From the NCBI RefSeq assembly GCF_000014745.1, contig NC_008347.1, positions 310,001-374,000 of the forward strand: 64,000 nucleotides of DNA. Direction: 5' to 3'. Positions 14,015 to 20,029 of this stretch are shown here, one piece after another. A program made the position numbers and the translations under genes. The notes under the pieces are model-generated. The model was not told where the DNA came from. It worked only from the letters and a program-made list of their open reading frames with translations, and did no database searches. Each line of letters begins with the position of its first letter. Position 1 is the first letter of the stretch. The stretch comes from Maricaulis maris MCS10 (GTDB taxonomy: Bacteria > Pseudomonadota > Alphaproteobacteria > Caulobacterales > Maricaulaceae).

Positions 14015-15256
14015 CTAATTCCCGGACGTTTCCGGTTTTAAGTAGACAAAATGTCCAACATCGATCCGACCGGTCGTAAAGCCGGCCTCGCAATAGGCGA
14101 GGTAAAAGCGCCAGATCCGGTCGAACTTCGCATCAAAACCCATTGCTTCGAGGTCGGGGCGGGATGCCCGGTAGGCCCGGTGCCAGCGAGCCAGGGTCTG
14201 CGCATAGCTTGAGGCAAACATCTCGGTGCTGATCGGAGCGAGGCCAACACTGCTGGCCAGTTCCGCCAGCCGTGATGCGGGCGGTAGCATGCCGCCCGGA
14301 AACACATATTTCTGGATGAAGTCAGCCGACGTCCGGTAACCGGCAAAATCATCCTCACGAATGGTAATGACCTGCAGCGCCGCGCGACCGCCCGGCTTCA
14401 GACAGTGGTTGAGCTGTGCGTAATAGGTTGGCCAATTGGCCTCGCCCACGGCTTCGAACATTTCTATCGAGGCGATGGCGTCAAATGTTTCGTTCACGTC
14501 TCGATAGTCCTGCAGCCGGAAGTCCACCCGGTCGGCAAGGTTCGCGGCTTCCAGTCTCCCCCGGGCATAGTCGAGCTGAGCGACCGAAAGTGTCAGACCG
14601 GTCACATGGCAGCCGAATTCGCGTGCAGCGACTTCGGCAAACCCGCCCCAGCCACAACCGATTTCCAGCACGCGATCGCCAGGTTTCAGGCCCAGGCGTT
14701 CGCAGATCCGGCGATATTTGCGCGTTTGCGCGATCTCCAGGCTTTCATCGTCTGTTTCAAACAGGGCCGACGAGTATGTCATGCTCTCGTCCAGCCAGTG
14801 CCGATAGAAGGCGTTGCCGAGATCATAGTGATAGGCAATGTTCCGTCGGCTGCCTCGGCGCGTATTGCCGTTCAGCCCGTGCTGCAGGCGCGCGAGCAAG
14901 CGGCTCGGCCCGTTTTTACGGTCGATGTCGACATTGGAGTCCAGCTCCAGCGCCAGGGCGGTGAGCAGGCCCGGCAGGTCGCTGGTATGCCATTCATCGT
15001 GCACATAACCTTCCGAAAACCCCAATACACCGCTTGCGGCTATCCGAAGCAGGGCATTCCACTTGCGCACCTTCCAGTCGGCGCAGGCGGAGGCGGTCTC
15101 CGGTCCGATATGAAAGATGTAGCCACCGGGCAGCTCCACTCGCAGCCGAAAGGCGGTCAGACCGGCCAGTGACCGCGCGATCCGTCGGGCTGCGAAGGCT
15201 TGCAGGCGAGACGGTTGTGCCGCGTTCTTCGCGGATTGATTGCTGTACGCGTCCAT
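14015..15256 (-). CDS. cfa: Cyclopropane-fatty-acyl-phospholipid synthase
   Basis: 413 residues. Methylates unsaturated phospholipid acyl chains with SAM to form cyclopropane rings. The SAM motif VLEIGCGWGGFAEVA is in the middle, preceded by the family's H-Y-D-L-G-N-A-F-Y segment and followed by the S-I-E-M-F-E-A-V-G loop. The start ATG at 15256 overlaps the DUF1365 stop as TGATG, so it is translationally coupled as third gene of the amine oxidase - DUF1365 - cfa operon; a longer frame to 15343 lies inside DUF1365 and is rejected. In Rhodobacter sphaeroides such lipid-modifying genes belong to the RpoE/ChrR singlet-oxygen regulon, matching the promoter at 17422-17449. Confidence 0.92.
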   Translation of the reverse strand: MDAYSNQSAKNAAQPSRLQAFAARRIARSLAGLTAFRLRVELPGGYIFHIGPETASACADWKVRKWNALLRIAASGVLGFSEGYVHDEWHTSDLPGLLTALALELDSNVDIDRKNGPSRLLARLQHGLNGNTRRGSRRNIAYHYDLGNAFYRHWLDESMTYSSALFETDDESLEIAQTRKYRRICERLGLKPGDRVLEIGCGWGGFAEVAAREFGCHVTGLTLSVAQLDYARGRLEAANLADRVDFRLQDYRDVNETFDAIASIEMFEAVGEANWPTYYAQLNHCLKPGGRAALQVITIREDDFAGYRTSADFIQKYVFPGGMLPPASRLAELASSVGLAPISTEMFASSYAQTLARWHRAYRASRPDLEAMGFDAKFDRIWRFYLAYCEAGFTTGRIDVGHFVYLKPETSGN

Positions 15257-16032
15257 CAATGCCTCCCGGGCAAGGTGTCTTCGGTACCGCGTCGGGGAGC
15301 GAATGTGGCTAACCCCTTCAGGCGCAGACGGAGCGCCTCCCACAGGATACCAAAAAAAATGCGGATTGTGTTGGTTGCCACGAGCCAGCTGGCCGAACGC
15401 AGGGCGCCCGGGGTCAATGGCTGGAGTTGCGCTGTGTGCGCGGCAGTGAGCACGACCTCGTCATCCCGGATCAGTTGGATCGAGAGGCGGTAGTGATGAT
15501 CGTCCCGCGCAATCTTGAAGCGATAATGCCCGCTCACCGGATTGAAGGGCGAGACGAAGAAGCGCTTGTCGGCCTGAAGGTGGTGCGGTGAATTGCGGTC
15601 CTTCCGCGCATCGACTGGAAAGGCGTAGGCGCAGCGACCGCCATGGAAATTGCTGACTTCGAAGACCAATCCGGTCAGGTCATCGTGCTGGTTGTAGGCG
15701 AAAAAGACCGAGACCGGGTTGAAGGACAGACCGAAAATGCGGGGTGAGGCGAGCAGCTGGATCCGGCCAATCGGTGATGTGGACCCGGCTTCGCGCAAGC
15801 GGTTTTCCACCCAGGCGCGCAGCGACAGTGTGTCTGCACCATGGTCAGAGGTGTGCAGGCTGACGAGGCCCGGGCGATTAAATCCAAAGGTCCAACCGTT
15901 CGATGCCGGCGCGTCAGGCCCGTCAATGTCGGCGAGGATCGATGCGACCCGGTAGCGCAGGCTGTGGTGTCGTGGGCGCCGGCGAGTGTGACCGACCTGA
16001 CCGACAAGCAGGGAGGCGGGGGAGGGGGTCAT
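15256..16032 (-). CDS. DUF1365 domain protein
   Basis: 258 residues. The N-terminal GQVGHTRRRPRHHSLRYRV segment and the FNPVSVFFAYN and FHVSPFNPVSGHY-like motifs (here FFVSPFNPVSGHYRF) are typical of DUF1365, which almost always lies between an FAD amine oxidase and a Cfa-like methyltransferase. The biochemical role is unproven; by context it takes part in fatty acyl modification. It overlaps the amine oxidase gene by 4 bp (ATGA) and the cfa gene by 1 bp (TGATG). A hydrophobic stretch near the C-terminus (IRIFFGILWEAL) may associate with the membrane. Confidence 0.88.
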   Translation of the reverse strand: MTPSPASLLVGQVGHTRRRPRHHSLRYRVASILADIDGPDAPASNGWTFGFNRPGLVSLHTSDHGADTLSLRAWVENRLREAGSTSPIGRIQLLASPRIFGLSFNPVSVFFAYNQHDDLTGLVFEVSNFHGGRCAYAFPVDARKDRNSPHHLQADKRFFVSPFNPVSGHYRFKIARDDHHYRLSIQLIRDDEVVLTAAHTAQLQPLTPGALRSASWLVATNTIRIFFGILWEALRLRLKGLATFAPRRGTEDTLPGRH

Positions 16033-17378
16033 TCGGCAGCGATCGTGAGCGGCCTGCCGGATGGACCGACCGCGCCACAGGTCCAGGCGATACGGGCATC
16101 CATGTCCGGGGCGATCCAGGGGCGCGGGTCGGCACCGAGCGCATCGGCGACCCGCAAGCCTGATTGCAGACCGTCCTCATGAAAGCCGGAGCCCAGCCAT
16201 GCGCCGCAATACCAGGTCCCGCGACGCCCTTGTACTGCTCCGAAATCCGATTGCGCCGCAAGGGCCTGATGATCAAAAACCGGGTGGTCGTAATGGTCGG
16301 TCCTGAGGATGCGGTCCGGGGCGGGCGGTGTCGCCGGATTCAGGGTCACGAACACAGAAGTGTGGGTTGGCAGGGGCTGCAGCCGGTTCATCCAGTAGGT
16401 CAGGCTGATGTCGCGGGTGTCCCGGGCGCCGCGCTCAAGATAGTTCCAGCTTGCCCATGCCTGCCGGCGCCGCGGCATGAAACGGCTATCTGTGTGCAAG
16501 ATTGCCGTGTTTGGACGGTAGCGGATGGCCGCAAGAAGACGGGTTTCTTCCGGGTCCGCATCATCCAGTAGCTTCAGCGCCTGATCGGAATGGCAGGCCA
16601 GAACCACATCGTCGAATTCGGCGCGGTGGCCGTGCTCCAGGGTCAGGACCACCCCGCCCGAGGTCCGGTTCACGCGGCGCACCGGTGCGTTCAGCGCAAT
16701 CTCGCCCCTGAAAGCGTCAGCCAGAGCATGCACATAGGACTGGCTTCCGCCGGTAACCGTCCGCCAGGCCGGTCGGTCGGTGAGCTGAAGCAAGCCATGA
16801 TTGAGAAAGAAGCGGAAAAAAGCGTCAGCCGGAAACCCGCGCATCTGATCAACCGGTGATGACCAGATCGCGGCACACATCGGCAGGATATGATCCTCGC
16901 GGAAGGCCTCGGAATAGCCGTGCGCCTGCAGGAAATCATCCAGCGAAAGCGTCGGGTCCGTGCGGTCGGAGTCCCGGGCGTGCCGGTTGAGCCGCAGGAT
17001 GTCCGCGATCATGCGCCACATGCGGGGGCGAAACAGATTGCGCCGTTGGGCGAACAGGCCATTCGGGTTGGACGAGTACTCGAAGCCGCCATCGGCGATG
17101 GAGGCCGCGAAGGACATGTCGCTGGGAGAGGTTTCAACCCGGAGGTGATCCAGCAGGGCGACGAAGTTCGGATAGTTGCGCGGATTGTAGACAATGAAGC
17201 CGGTGTCGACGCCGAAAGCGGTGTCGCCGACGAGAACTTTCGCGGTGTTCGCGTGGCCGCCCAGTCGGCTGGAGGCCTCGAACAGCGTCACGTCGTGGCG
17301 CGTGGACAACCTCCACGCAGCGGCGAGGCCGGATATTCCCGATCCGATGACGGCGATGCGACGGCGTGCTGGGGACAT
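16029..17378 (-). CDS. FAD-dependent amine oxidase-like protein (NAD(P)-binding)
   Basis: 449 residues. The dinucleotide-binding motif IAVIGSGISGLAAAW starts at about residue 8, followed by the FEASSRLGGHANT segment, both typical of the COG2907-type flavoproteins linked to DUF1365 and cfa. The C-terminal FAD element appears as YCGAWLGSGFHEDGLQSG. The ATG at 17378 is preferred; the frame continues to 17600 but crosses the divergent promoter region. It is the first gene of the three-gene lipid operon. Its substrate is probably a fatty-acyl chain, by association. A minus-strand ECF-type promoter (17422-17449) lies about 45 bp upstream. Confidence 0.88.
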   Translation of the reverse strand: MSPARRRIAVIGSGISGLAAAWRLSTRHDVTLFEASSRLGGHANTAKVLVGDTAFGVDTGFIVYNPRNYPNFVALLDHLRVETSPSDMSFAASIADGGFEYSSNPNGLFAQRRNLFRPRMWRMIADILRLNRHARDSDRTDPTLSLDDFLQAHGYSEAFREDHILPMCAAIWSSPVDQMRGFPADAFFRFFLNHGLLQLTDRPAWRTVTGGSQSYVHALADAFRGEIALNAPVRRVNRTSGGVVLTLEHGHRAEFDDVVLACHSDQALKLLDDADPEETRLLAAIRYRPNTAILHTDSRFMPRRRQAWASWNYLERGARDTRDISLTYWMNRLQPLPTHTSVFVTLNPATPPAPDRILRTDHYDHPVFDHQALAAQSDFGAVQGRRGTWYCGAWLGSGFHEDGLQSGLRVADALGADPRPWIAPDMDARIAWTCGAVGPSGRPLTIAAE

Positions 17379-17421: not shown

Positions 17422-17449
17422 GCTACGTTGCTGCCGTGCGATTGGATCA
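17422..17449 (-). promoter_or_regulatory. ECF sigma (RpoE/ChrR-type) promoter for the amine oxidase - DUF1365 - cfa operon
   Basis: Read on the minus strand: TGATCC (17449-17444), a 16-nt spacer, CGTAGC (17427-17422). It differs by one base from the promoter that faces the sigma gene (17497-17524) and has the same spacing. TGATCC is the -35 element I recall for the RpoE-ChrR class. The distance to the start codon at 17378 (about 43 bp) suits a short leader. Confidence 0.72.
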
Positions 17450-17496: not shown

Positions 17497-17524
17497 TGAT
17501 CCACTTCACGCCGGGCTTCGTATC
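17497..17524 (+). promoter_or_regulatory. ECF sigma autoregulatory promoter for the sigma/anti-sigma operon
   Basis: TGATCC (17497-17502), a 16-nt spacer, CGTATC (17519-17524), 76 bp before the sigma gene start at 17601. The identical -35 hexamer and spacing on the opposite strand at 17422-17449 argue that both are read by the sigma factor encoded here. Autoregulation is usual for this class. Confidence 0.75.
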
Positions 17525-17600: not shown

Positions 17601-18185
17601 ATGACGGATCTGACTGACCGCCCTGCTCCAACGGTTGATAGCCAGAGACTGTCAGACTTGCTGGTGCAGGTCGGGCAGGCGCGGGACCGCGCCGCCTTCC
17701 GAACCCTGTTTGACCATTTTGCGCCGAGGATTCGGGCATTTCTGATCCAGCGTCGGGTCATACCGGCGATGGCGGACGACCTGACGCAGGATGTGATGCT
17801 GGCAATCTGGCGTCGCGCGTCAAGTTTCGACCCGTCACGGGCGGCCGCATCCACCTGGATCTACACAATCGCCCGTAATCAGCACATCGATCAATATCGC
17901 AAGGCCCAGCGGGCCAGCCGCATGGACGAGACCGACCCGTCTCTCCAGCCTGCGCCCGCACCGGCGGCGGATGATCTGTGCGAACAGGCCGAAGCTGCCG
18001 ACAGCGTCGGTGTCGCCCTGGAAGACCTTTCTGCCGATCAGCGGCAGGTCGTGGAACTCGCCTTCACCGAAGGCCTGACCCACAGCGAAATCGCCGACCG
18101 GCTTGAACTGCCGCTCGGTACCGTCAAATCACGCATACGACTTGCCCTGGGCAAGTTGAAGACGACCCTTGGAGAAATGGTATGA
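17601..18185 (+). CDS. rpoE: ECF sigma factor, RpoE/ChrR (ECF11) class
   Basis: 194 residues. The ATG at 17601 follows AAAGGGG; the upstream frame to 17436 would overlap the promoter. Region 2 runs about 25-95 (FRTLFDHFAPRIRAFL, DDLTQDVMLAIW, STWIYTIARNQHIDQYR) and region 4 about 140-190 (LSADQRQVVELAF, HSEIADRLELPLGTVKSRIRLAL). Gene order with a ChrR-like anti-sigma factor (4-bp ATGA overlap) and divergent lipid-modification genes places it in the group that answers singlet oxygen or organic peroxide in phototrophic and non-phototrophic alphaproteobacteria. The assignment to the ECF11 group is from context and similarity by eye. Confidence 0.88.
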   Translation: MTDLTDRPAPTVDSQRLSDLLVQVGQARDRAAFRTLFDHFAPRIRAFLIQRRVIPAMADDLTQDVMLAIWRRASSFDPSRAAASTWIYTIARNQHIDQYRKAQRASRMDETDPSLQPAPAPAADDLCEQAEAADSVGVALEDLSADQRQVVELAFTEGLTHSEIADRLELPLGTVKSRIRLALGKLKTTLGEMV

Positions 18186-18865
18186 CCCAACGCGGTCACA
18201 CGCTCGATGATGCCTGGTATCTGGGCTACGCTGCCGGAAGTCTGGCAAGCGAGGCGGAAACAGTGCTTGTCCAGTCACATGTCGAATTGAATTCTGATGC
18301 ACAGGACCGGGTCGAGCAGCTCGACCGCATTGGTGGGGTCCTGCTCGACCGGATGCCGGTCGGGGAAGCGCTCCCATTCAGTGCCGATGAACTTTTGGAA
18401 ATGGCCGACCGGAGTGATCCGTTGCAAGCCGGTGAAAGCGTGTCCGACGAGGCCGCCAATGTCCCTGACGCCCTCGATGGGGTCAATCTGCCGCCGGCCC
18501 TCGCGCAGTATCTCGCCCGCTCGCCGGCCCGCCTGAAATGGGAATTCCTCGGTCCGGGTCTGCGCAAATCCATTTTGTGGCGCGGCAAGGACGGGGAGCG
18601 GCTCTGGTTGCTCAAGGCGCAGCCCGGAGTCGCTATCCCGCATCACGGGCATGCCGGGTCAGAGCTGACTCTCGTGTTGAAGGGCAGCTTCTGGGATGGA
18701 GACCAGGAGTATCGGCGCGGCGATGTCGAAGAGGCCCATGAAGATGTTGAACATGACATTCGGATCGGAACAGGTGGAGAGTGCGTCTGCTTGGCCCTGA
18801 CCCAGGGGAAATTGCGCTTCGAAAGTCCGCTTTTGACGGCTTTTCAGGTCTTTACCGGACTTTGA
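18182..18865 (+). CDS. chrR: ChrR-like cupin anti-sigma factor lacking the zinc-ligand cysteines
   Basis: 227 residues: an N-terminal anti-sigma domain (about 1-85) and a C-terminal cupin (about 110-220). In R. sphaeroides ChrR the anti-sigma domain binds zinc through His6, His31, Cys35 and Cys38 (H-x3-C-x2-C). Here the equivalents read His6 and His33, then Asn37 and Ala40 (HVELNSDA), so both cysteines are gone. The cupin metal site looks intact: H-G-H-A-G-S-E gives HxHx3E, and a later His lies in the EAHED segment. The protein should hold the sigma factor and release it on stress, but without the zinc knuckle in its standard form. Coupled to the sigma gene by ATGA. Confidence 0.85.
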   Translation: MTQRGHTLDDAWYLGYAAGSLASEAETVLVQSHVELNSDAQDRVEQLDRIGGVLLDRMPVGEALPFSADELLEMADRSDPLQAGESVSDEAANVPDALDGVNLPPALAQYLARSPARLKWEFLGPGLRKSILWRGKDGERLWLLKAQPGVAIPHHGHAGSELTLVLKGSFWDGDQEYRRGDVEEAHEDVEHDIRIGTGGECVCLALTQGKLRFESPLLTAFQVFTGL

Positions 18866-18985
18866 CTGCAGCGCTCGCCATGTGCCGGGAATTTCAATGA
18901 GTGACGAAGGCGGGTGCTTGCGCCGTGCGTTTGCGCTACCATCGGTCATCACGTGATTTCGTCAGGTGCCGGGGTGACGGTCAGC

Positions 18986-20029
18986 ATGAGTGTGAAAATG
19001 CGGGCGAACAAGCAGTCCGGAGCGACCATCAAGGACGTGGCGAGCGCGGCAGGCGTGTCCGCCATGACGGTCTCGCGCGTGTTGAACGCTGAGCCGAATG
19101 TTCGTCCGGCCACACGCGAGCGCGTGCAATCGGCAATCCGCGATCTCAACTATCGCCCCAATCTTTCGGCGCGCAATCTGGCGCGGGCCAATGCCTATTT
19201 TATCGGCTTGCTTTATGACAATCCGAGCGCGGGCTATATCAGCGAGTTGTTGATCGGCGCCCTGAACCGCTGTCGCACCTCGGGTTACCATCTCGTTCTT
19301 GAAAGCTGTGATGCGGCAGGGGCCGACTGGTCGAACCAGATCGCTGACATGCTGCGGACGTCGAATTTTGATGGCGTCATCATGCCGCCGCCCGTTTGCG
19401 ATCATGCCGATGTTCTGGCCGCCGTCGATGCCGCCGGTATCCCCTATGTCCGCATTGCGCCGGACACGGATCTGGATCGGGCCCCCTGCATTCTCACCGA
19501 TGACCGCGCCGCGGCGCGCCGAATGACGGACTATCTGATCGAGCTCGGCCATACCCGGATCGGATTTGTGCTCGGGCCGCAAGAACACGGTGCCAGTCGT
19601 GAGCGCCATGCCGGTTTCCTTGAAGGCTTGAGCGCGCACGGCCTGGAAAGTGAGCCGGAACTCATTGCAGAGGGGGCTTTCACTTATAAATCGGGACTGG
19701 AGGCGGCCGAGAAGCTCCTTTCGCTGGCGGACCGACCCACAGCTATTTTCGCGTCCAATGACGACATGGCGGTGGCGGTCATCGCGCTGGCCCACAAGCA
19801 TGCCCTGGATGTGCCCCGCGACCTGACCGTGGTGGGCTTTGACGATACGCAGACAGCCACCGCAATCTGGCCACAGCTGACAACAGTCAGGCAGCCGATT
19901 TCCGACATGTCGAGCGCGGCGATCGAGCTCCTTGCCAGCCATCTCGATGGAGATGCCGGCGCATTGGCCCGGCGAGAAATCCGATCGGAAATCGTGGTTC
20001 GGGACTCATCCGCGGCGCCAACCGGCTAG
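18986..20029 (+). CDS. LacI-family transcriptional regulator
   Basis: 347 residues from the ATG at 18986; an ATG at 18998 and a GTG at 18914 are alternatives. The N-terminal LacI helix-turn-helix is clear (TIKDVASAAGVSAMTVSRVLN), followed by the hinge helix region (NYRPNLSARNLA) and a periplasmic-binding-protein-like sensor domain with FASNDDMAVAVI and VVGFDDTQTATAIWPQLTTVRQP. Such regulators usually repress sugar uptake or catabolic genes. No sugar operon is adjacent and the target is unknown; the nearest candidate is the GPH symporter 7 kb away. Confidence 0.9.
   Translation: MSVKMRANKQSGATIKDVASAAGVSAMTVSRVLNAEPNVRPATRERVQSAIRDLNYRPNLSARNLARANAYFIGLLYDNPSAGYISELLIGALNRCRTSGYHLVLESCDAAGADWSNQIADMLRTSNFDGVIMPPPVCDHADVLAAVDAAGIPYVRIAPDTDLDRAPCILTDDRAAARRMTDYLIELGHTRIGFVLGPQEHGASRERHAGFLEGLSAHGLESEPELIAEGAFTYKSGLEAAEKLLSLADRPTAIFASNDDMAVAVIALAHKHALDVPRDLTVVGFDDTQTATAIWPQLTTVRQPISDMSSAAIELLASHLDGDAGALARREIRSEIVVRDSSAAPTG

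Follow-up and report, generated by a model that had tools for sequence, protein, structure and literature searches.

The closest described counterpart of the protein analysed here is ChrR of R. sphaeroides, a ZAS-type anti-sigma factor of the ECF11 group, in which zinc and its ligands in the anti-sigma domain (ASD) are reported as required for inhibition of the sigma factor (PMC6852236). The ZAS motif has a spacing of X24/25 between the first ligand and the central histidine, and where two histidines form an HH pair the zinc is bound by the second one only (excerpt of PMC6432622). Beside rpoE-chrR, the genes RSP_1091 and RSP_1090 are conserved and are members of the core regulon (PMC3818230, PMC5507510), and the site of PSPTO_1043 has the same promoter form, TGATCC-N16-CGTA, as that described below (PMC5507510). 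In C. crescentus, singlet oxygen, organic peroxide, cadmium and UV-A all induce RpoE (PMC3818230), and a pair of conserved cysteines in Caulobacter ChrR is important for the response to cadmium (PMC3511200). Zinc-free ASDs are known in general: the excerpt of PMC7406223 places the zinc motif in ~72% of soluble ASDs and describes groups AS19-1 and AS27 as mixtures of zinc and non-zinc members, and it names AS11, the ChrR group, with no statement on the zinc motif of that group found in the excerpt. At the level of titles and abstract openings, with subscription literature outside the scope of the search, we found no earlier statement of a zinc-less ChrR.

The sigma factor-chrR locus and its promoters

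The window, by which we mean the whole stretch of 64,000 nucleotides of Maricaulis maris MCS10 that was analysed (NC_008347.1, positions 310,001 to 374,000), carries a chrR-like gene in the following setting.

14015..15343, minus strand: cyclopropane-fatty-acid synthase family gene (PF02353), whose start may be later
15256..16032, minus strand: DUF1365 gene (PF07103), RSP_1090-like to judge by its neighbourhood
16029..17378, minus strand: flavin amine oxidase-like gene (PF01593), as RSP_1091, its start taken as the Met 45 nt past the promoter match
17424..17449, minus strand: match to the sigmaE-type promoter TGATCC-N16-CGTA before the divergent genes
17497..17522, plus strand: match to the sigmaE-type promoter TGATCC-N16-CGTA before sigma-chrR
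17601..18185, plus strand: ECF sigma factor gene (Sigma70_r2 and r4; TIGR02937, 101.7 bits), with a 4 bp overlap with chrR
18182..18865, plus strand: chrR-like anti-sigma factor gene, 227 aa (TIGR02451, PF12973 cupin, matches to 2Z2S and 2Q1Z)
18182..18355, plus strand: ASD, residues 1-58, no cysteine (from the model and the cysteine positions)
18278..18301, plus strand: degenerate zinc knuckle H33-V-E-L-N37-S-D-A40, in place of H-x3-C-x2-C (from alignments)
18488..18862, plus strand: cupin-like domain, residues 103-227, with H155, H157, E161 and H191, and with Cys201/Cys203 as the equivalents of C187/C189

The whole protein encoded at 18182-18865 matches TIGR02451, the model of the ChrR anti-sigma family, with a score of 136 bits that exceeds the cut-off of 124.5, and it also matches PF12973, the ChrR cupin model. 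A phmmer search aligned it with 2Z2S chain B, which is R. sphaeroides ChrR, at an E-value of 1.8e-27, with 2Q1Z matched as well, and a fold search with the predicted structure returned ChrR chains of 2Q1Z and 2Z2S as its best six solved-structure matches. The surroundings carry the traits of an ECF11-type locus, namely an ECF sigma gene that immediately precedes chrR in the same orientation, the expected promoter form before that sigma gene, and the core-regulon neighbours. Immediately after chrR, and in the same orientation, comes an ORF for a LacI-type regulator (18914-20029).

Both orientations of the promoter form TGATCC-N16-CGTA are found in the window, and likewise in 8/8 named Maricaulis loci, although the spacers differ. 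Across the whole genome there are 14 exact sites (spacer 16-17), against 0 for a reversed-pattern control. Inspection of 12 of these 14 sites recovered the window pair, two near identified genes and eight without a linked gene, and these last eight may be chance matches. The two near identified genes (L319/L323, at C1:1636599-1636624 and 2502035-2502060 of the window's own genome) lie 17 nt ahead of an ORF for a DNA photolyase and 27 nt ahead of one for a sigma-32 protein, respectively. On these sequence signs, the sigma-ChrR system looks alive.

The zinc site in the window protein, its genus and its wider family

Alignment with 2Z2S chain B bears out the central claim of the first-pass annotation that both ASD cysteines are absent, ChrR Cys35 and Cys38 being replaced by Asn37 and Ala40, and likewise its statement that the cupin His/Glu site is intact: ChrR His141/His143/Glu147/His177 correspond to His155/His157/Glu161/His191 of the window protein, which are invariant across the 80 rows of one alignment. 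The further statement that the two zinc histidines remain is correct for one of them, as His33 is kept, whereas His6 aligns with the non-ligand His5 of ChrR and the ligand column is occupied by Thr7, in a register given alike by phmmer and by MAFFT. It follows that three of the four ligands have been lost, not two. Between His6 and His33 there are 26 residues, versus the X24/25 of the motif. A retained N-terminal zinc histidine is ruled out by this register and by poor conservation, the place of His6 being taken by H, E, N, Q or Y among Maricaulis sequences. The window ChrR protein contains no H-x3-C-x2-C motif, and of the ZAS motif H/C-X24/25-H-X3-C-X2-C it retains the central histidine alone; its only cysteines, 201 and 203, are both in the cupin.

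The same state is found throughout the genus. Both cysteines are absent from 18/18 Maricaulis sequences that span the motif (the window, L002-L017 and L019, with L018 outside the count as a fragment without the ASD), and no cysteine occurs in ASD columns 5-60 of any of these 18 rows. Comparison of the coding sequences indicates that the ASD is under purifying selection in Maricaulis, with a median dN/dS of 0.216 (109/153 pairs usable), compared with 0.509 for the linker (104 pairs) and 0.156 for the cupin (129 pairs), all of these being estimates with dS near saturation. Starts placed too far downstream trimmed the first residues of four rows in this set, and the columns used were unaffected. 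No internal stops were found in the same-genus ChrR matches.

For the wider family, TIGR02451 searches gave a match at 1e-6 in 109 of 149 relatives and, at 1e-20, in 73 of 190 genomes of the class, which we take to be Alphaproteobacteria, and in 38 of 200 genomes of the phylum, the three genome sets overlapping slightly. A search with NF051881, the Caulobacter-type ChrR model, in 299 genomes of a further family (that of G122, designated f3) gave 69 matches at 1e-60, all above the model cut-off. Outside the counts are, in the relatives set, 19 low-scoring and mostly partial matches among the TIGR02451 matches listed, together with unlisted ones, and, in the class set, three matches (G228, G284 and a second one in G246). 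The resulting 313 loci contained 312 ChrR-like ORFs, 291 of them distinct after identical ones were merged, and 286 rows were counted once five (L018, L144, L145, L146 and L242) had been excluded for empty motif columns. This set is biased to the window's order and to the Caulobacter-type-model set, and it includes the window's own locus (L001).

Over these 286 homologous rows, both cysteines are present in 88, neither in 191 and one in 7. Both histidines are present in 88/88 of the Cys/Cys rows; in the 191 rows without either cysteine the first histidine is found in 10, the second in 110 and both in 10. The cupin ligands are nearly constant, with His in 286, His in 286, Glu in 284 and His in 286 rows. 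Read from these sequences, the ASD zinc site behaves as a block. Cys/Cys rows make up 15/126 of the relatives, 73/101 of the class and phylum sets together and 0/59 of the further f3 set, and the genomes of the phylum set that lie outside the class have HHCC in 16/16.

A quick IQ-TREE phylogeny of 187 thinned rows, which omits the four ligand columns and has a weak backbone, requires at least 16 changes of the cysteine state; 14 changes are counted with weak branches collapsed at <80 and 3 at <95, and 11 over the 151 rows that have an upstream sigma gene. The tree carries no direction of change, and we infer loss as the direction because the motif is a hallmark of the wider ZAS group. The residues that stand in place of the cysteines are diverse: in the 96 zinc-less rows of the thinned set, the residue at position 35 is R in 25, S in 24, N in 23, D in 7, K in 7, Q in 4 and E in 3, and position 38 is A in 38, V in 20, I in 7, S in 7, N in 6 and L in 5, with others at each.

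Outside the f3 set, an upstream ECF sigma gene was not found for 42/139 rows that are not Cys/Cys, versus 6/88 Cys/Cys rows, although for two of those 42 (L041 and L216) the choice of ORF seems to be at fault. The sequences thus point to zinc loss being accompanied in some sub-clades by absence of the partner sigma gene, and some homologues without the zinc site may have taken on another partner or another function. One clade of 15 thinned rows (L099 to L143) contains zinc-less ChrR-like paralogues from the family of the window protein, L117, L114 and L127, for which no upstream ECF sigma gene was found and which possibly represent a sigma-free ChrR; the neighbours of L117 encode a PLP-dependent enzyme (PF00291), a DUF6134 protein and a photolyase-related protein (PF04244), and L114 and L127 have ORFs resembling those around L117. 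Further ChrR-like genes for which no upstream ECF sigma gene was found are L247 (2161-3052), followed by an ORF that may encode a short-chain dehydrogenase, and L200 (1488-2136).

Readings of the zinc-less anti-sigma domain

We read the locus as a functional sigmaE-ChrR-type ECF sigma/anti-sigma pair in which the ASD would hold the sigma factor without zinc and the cupin would act as the sensor, and we put the probability of this reading at roughly three in four. The same lack of cysteines recurs in many relatives, and the window protein is therefore probably a working variant rather than a broken gene. Among the options raised by the first-pass annotation, which were sigma binding without zinc, use of another ligand and a constitutively weak inhibitor, the first is the best supported, being favoured by the signs of purifying selection on the ASD, by the ChrR-like helices of the structure model, and by the conserved sigma gene and promoters.

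The model of the window protein has a mean pLDDT of 89.2 and helices at residues 10-17, 24-36, 38-56 and 68-77, and that of an HHCC-type control (L180) has a mean pLDDT of 93.4 and helices at 10-17, 23-35, 37-56 and 66-76, the ASD helices of the two models thus falling at nearly the same residues. By block, pLDDT in the window model is 96-98 for residues 11-50 and 77 for residues 1-10, versus 94 for the latter in the control. As the helices run from 24 to 36 and from 38 to 56, Asn37 is the residue just before helix 3, which is a capping position, and the model suggests that capping and packing could substitute for zinc. The helix cap suits only part of the zinc-less rows, since 32/96 in the thinned set have Arg or Lys at position 35.

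In the proposed mechanism, the helical bundle of the ASD would be maintained by packing instead of zinc, with Asn37, at the break between helix 2 and helix 3, able to cap helix 3 and Ala40 packing at the former place of the second cysteine. A signal such as singlet oxygen, organic peroxide or similar would enter via the C-terminal cupin, in which the metal site and Cys201/Cys203 are intact, and would free the sigma factor. The freed sigma factor would then drive transcription of its own operon and of the divergent genes for the amine oxidase, the DUF1365 protein and the cyclopropane synthase, and probably also of the photolyase and sigma-32 genes elsewhere in the genome.

The protein could instead be a weak or decaying inhibitor, leaving the sigma factor partly constitutive and the pair heading for loss. 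Such decay would fit the need for the zinc ligands in R. sphaeroides, as excerpted from PMC6852236, and the zinc-less homologues elsewhere for which no adjoining sigma gene was found, but it sits poorly with an ASD dN/dS of ~0.2 (dS near saturation), with promoter matches retained on both sides in 8/8 named loci and with same-genus matches that are free of internal stops, and we consider it improbable. Slightly less probable again is an ASD that still binds metal via substitute ligands, whether His33, Glu35 and Asp10 or residues of the sigma factor or the cupin. All 18 Maricaulis rows have His33 and Glu35, and 17/18 have Asp10, but these are the only conserved ASD candidates in the genus, where cysteine is absent from the ASD and the N-terminal histidine is not conserved, and the second histidine is replaced by Gln in 41/96 thinned zinc-less rows, so that the other-ligand option is weakly disfavoured. 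An error in the sequencing or assembly of the knuckle, of which cysteine-bearing close relatives had been proposed as the sign, is refuted because all 18 motif-spanning Maricaulis sequences, from separate genomes, agree in lacking the two cysteines.

There is also a more general view, towards which we lean with less confidence than for the locus itself: that zinc in the ChrR-family ASD is a replaceable structural prop whose whole site has been lost many times, that sensing cannot do without the metal site of the cupin, and that zinc-less ChrRs are natural separation-of-function forms which would exclude a general triggering of the singlet-oxygen response by oxidised ASD cysteines. The suggestion that this protein offers a natural test of which half is the stress sensor is a fair one, but the protein is no oddity, as 191/286 rows, mostly from its own order and class, are without either cysteine. 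With so large a set of ChrRs lacking the ASD cysteines, the question of sensing becomes directly testable by comparison. The set probably includes the Caulobacter type, with its singlet-oxygen-responsive sigmaE, and it predicts that the cupin suffices for sensing.

Comparison with described systems

R. sphaeroides ChrR, at ~30-33% identity in fold alignments, shares with the window protein the two-domain architecture, the cupin ligands and the cupin cysteines, and also the adjoining sigma gene, the amine oxidase and DUF1365 neighbours and the sigmaE-type promoter matches. It differs in the ASD ligands, His6, Cys35 and Cys38 of R. sphaeroides ChrR being Thr7, Asn37 and Ala40 in the window.

The Caulobacter-type ChrR is represented by the equivalog model NF051881, named as cadmium/peroxide/UV radiation responsive ChrR, against which the window protein scores 115.3 bits and thus falls below the cut-off of 300. 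A C. vibrioides control passes this cut-off, and for this reason we take family f3 to be Caulobacteraceae. Like the window protein, 64/64 f3 rows (from 63 of the 69 NF051881-matching genomes and one other) have no cysteine at position 35 or 38 and retain the full set of cupin ligands as well as the two cupin cysteines; in a single row (L299) a cysteine occurs elsewhere in the ASD. The f3 rows differ in having mostly Arg35 and Asn/Thr38 and in forming a clade separate from the window on the quick tree. If the C. crescentus protein resembles its family, the cysteines that matter for cadmium would by analogy be the cupin pair.

Class I ASDs provide the described precedent for a domain of this kind, RseA and RskA not relying on zinc and RsiW binding its sigma factor independently of zinc, as set out in the excerpts of PMC6852236 and PMC7406223. 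What they have in common with the window protein, for which it is a prediction, is a helical ASD whose hold on the sigma factor does not need zinc, but they are classed apart from the group of ChrR, and the window protein differs from them as a soluble, cupin-bearing ChrR.
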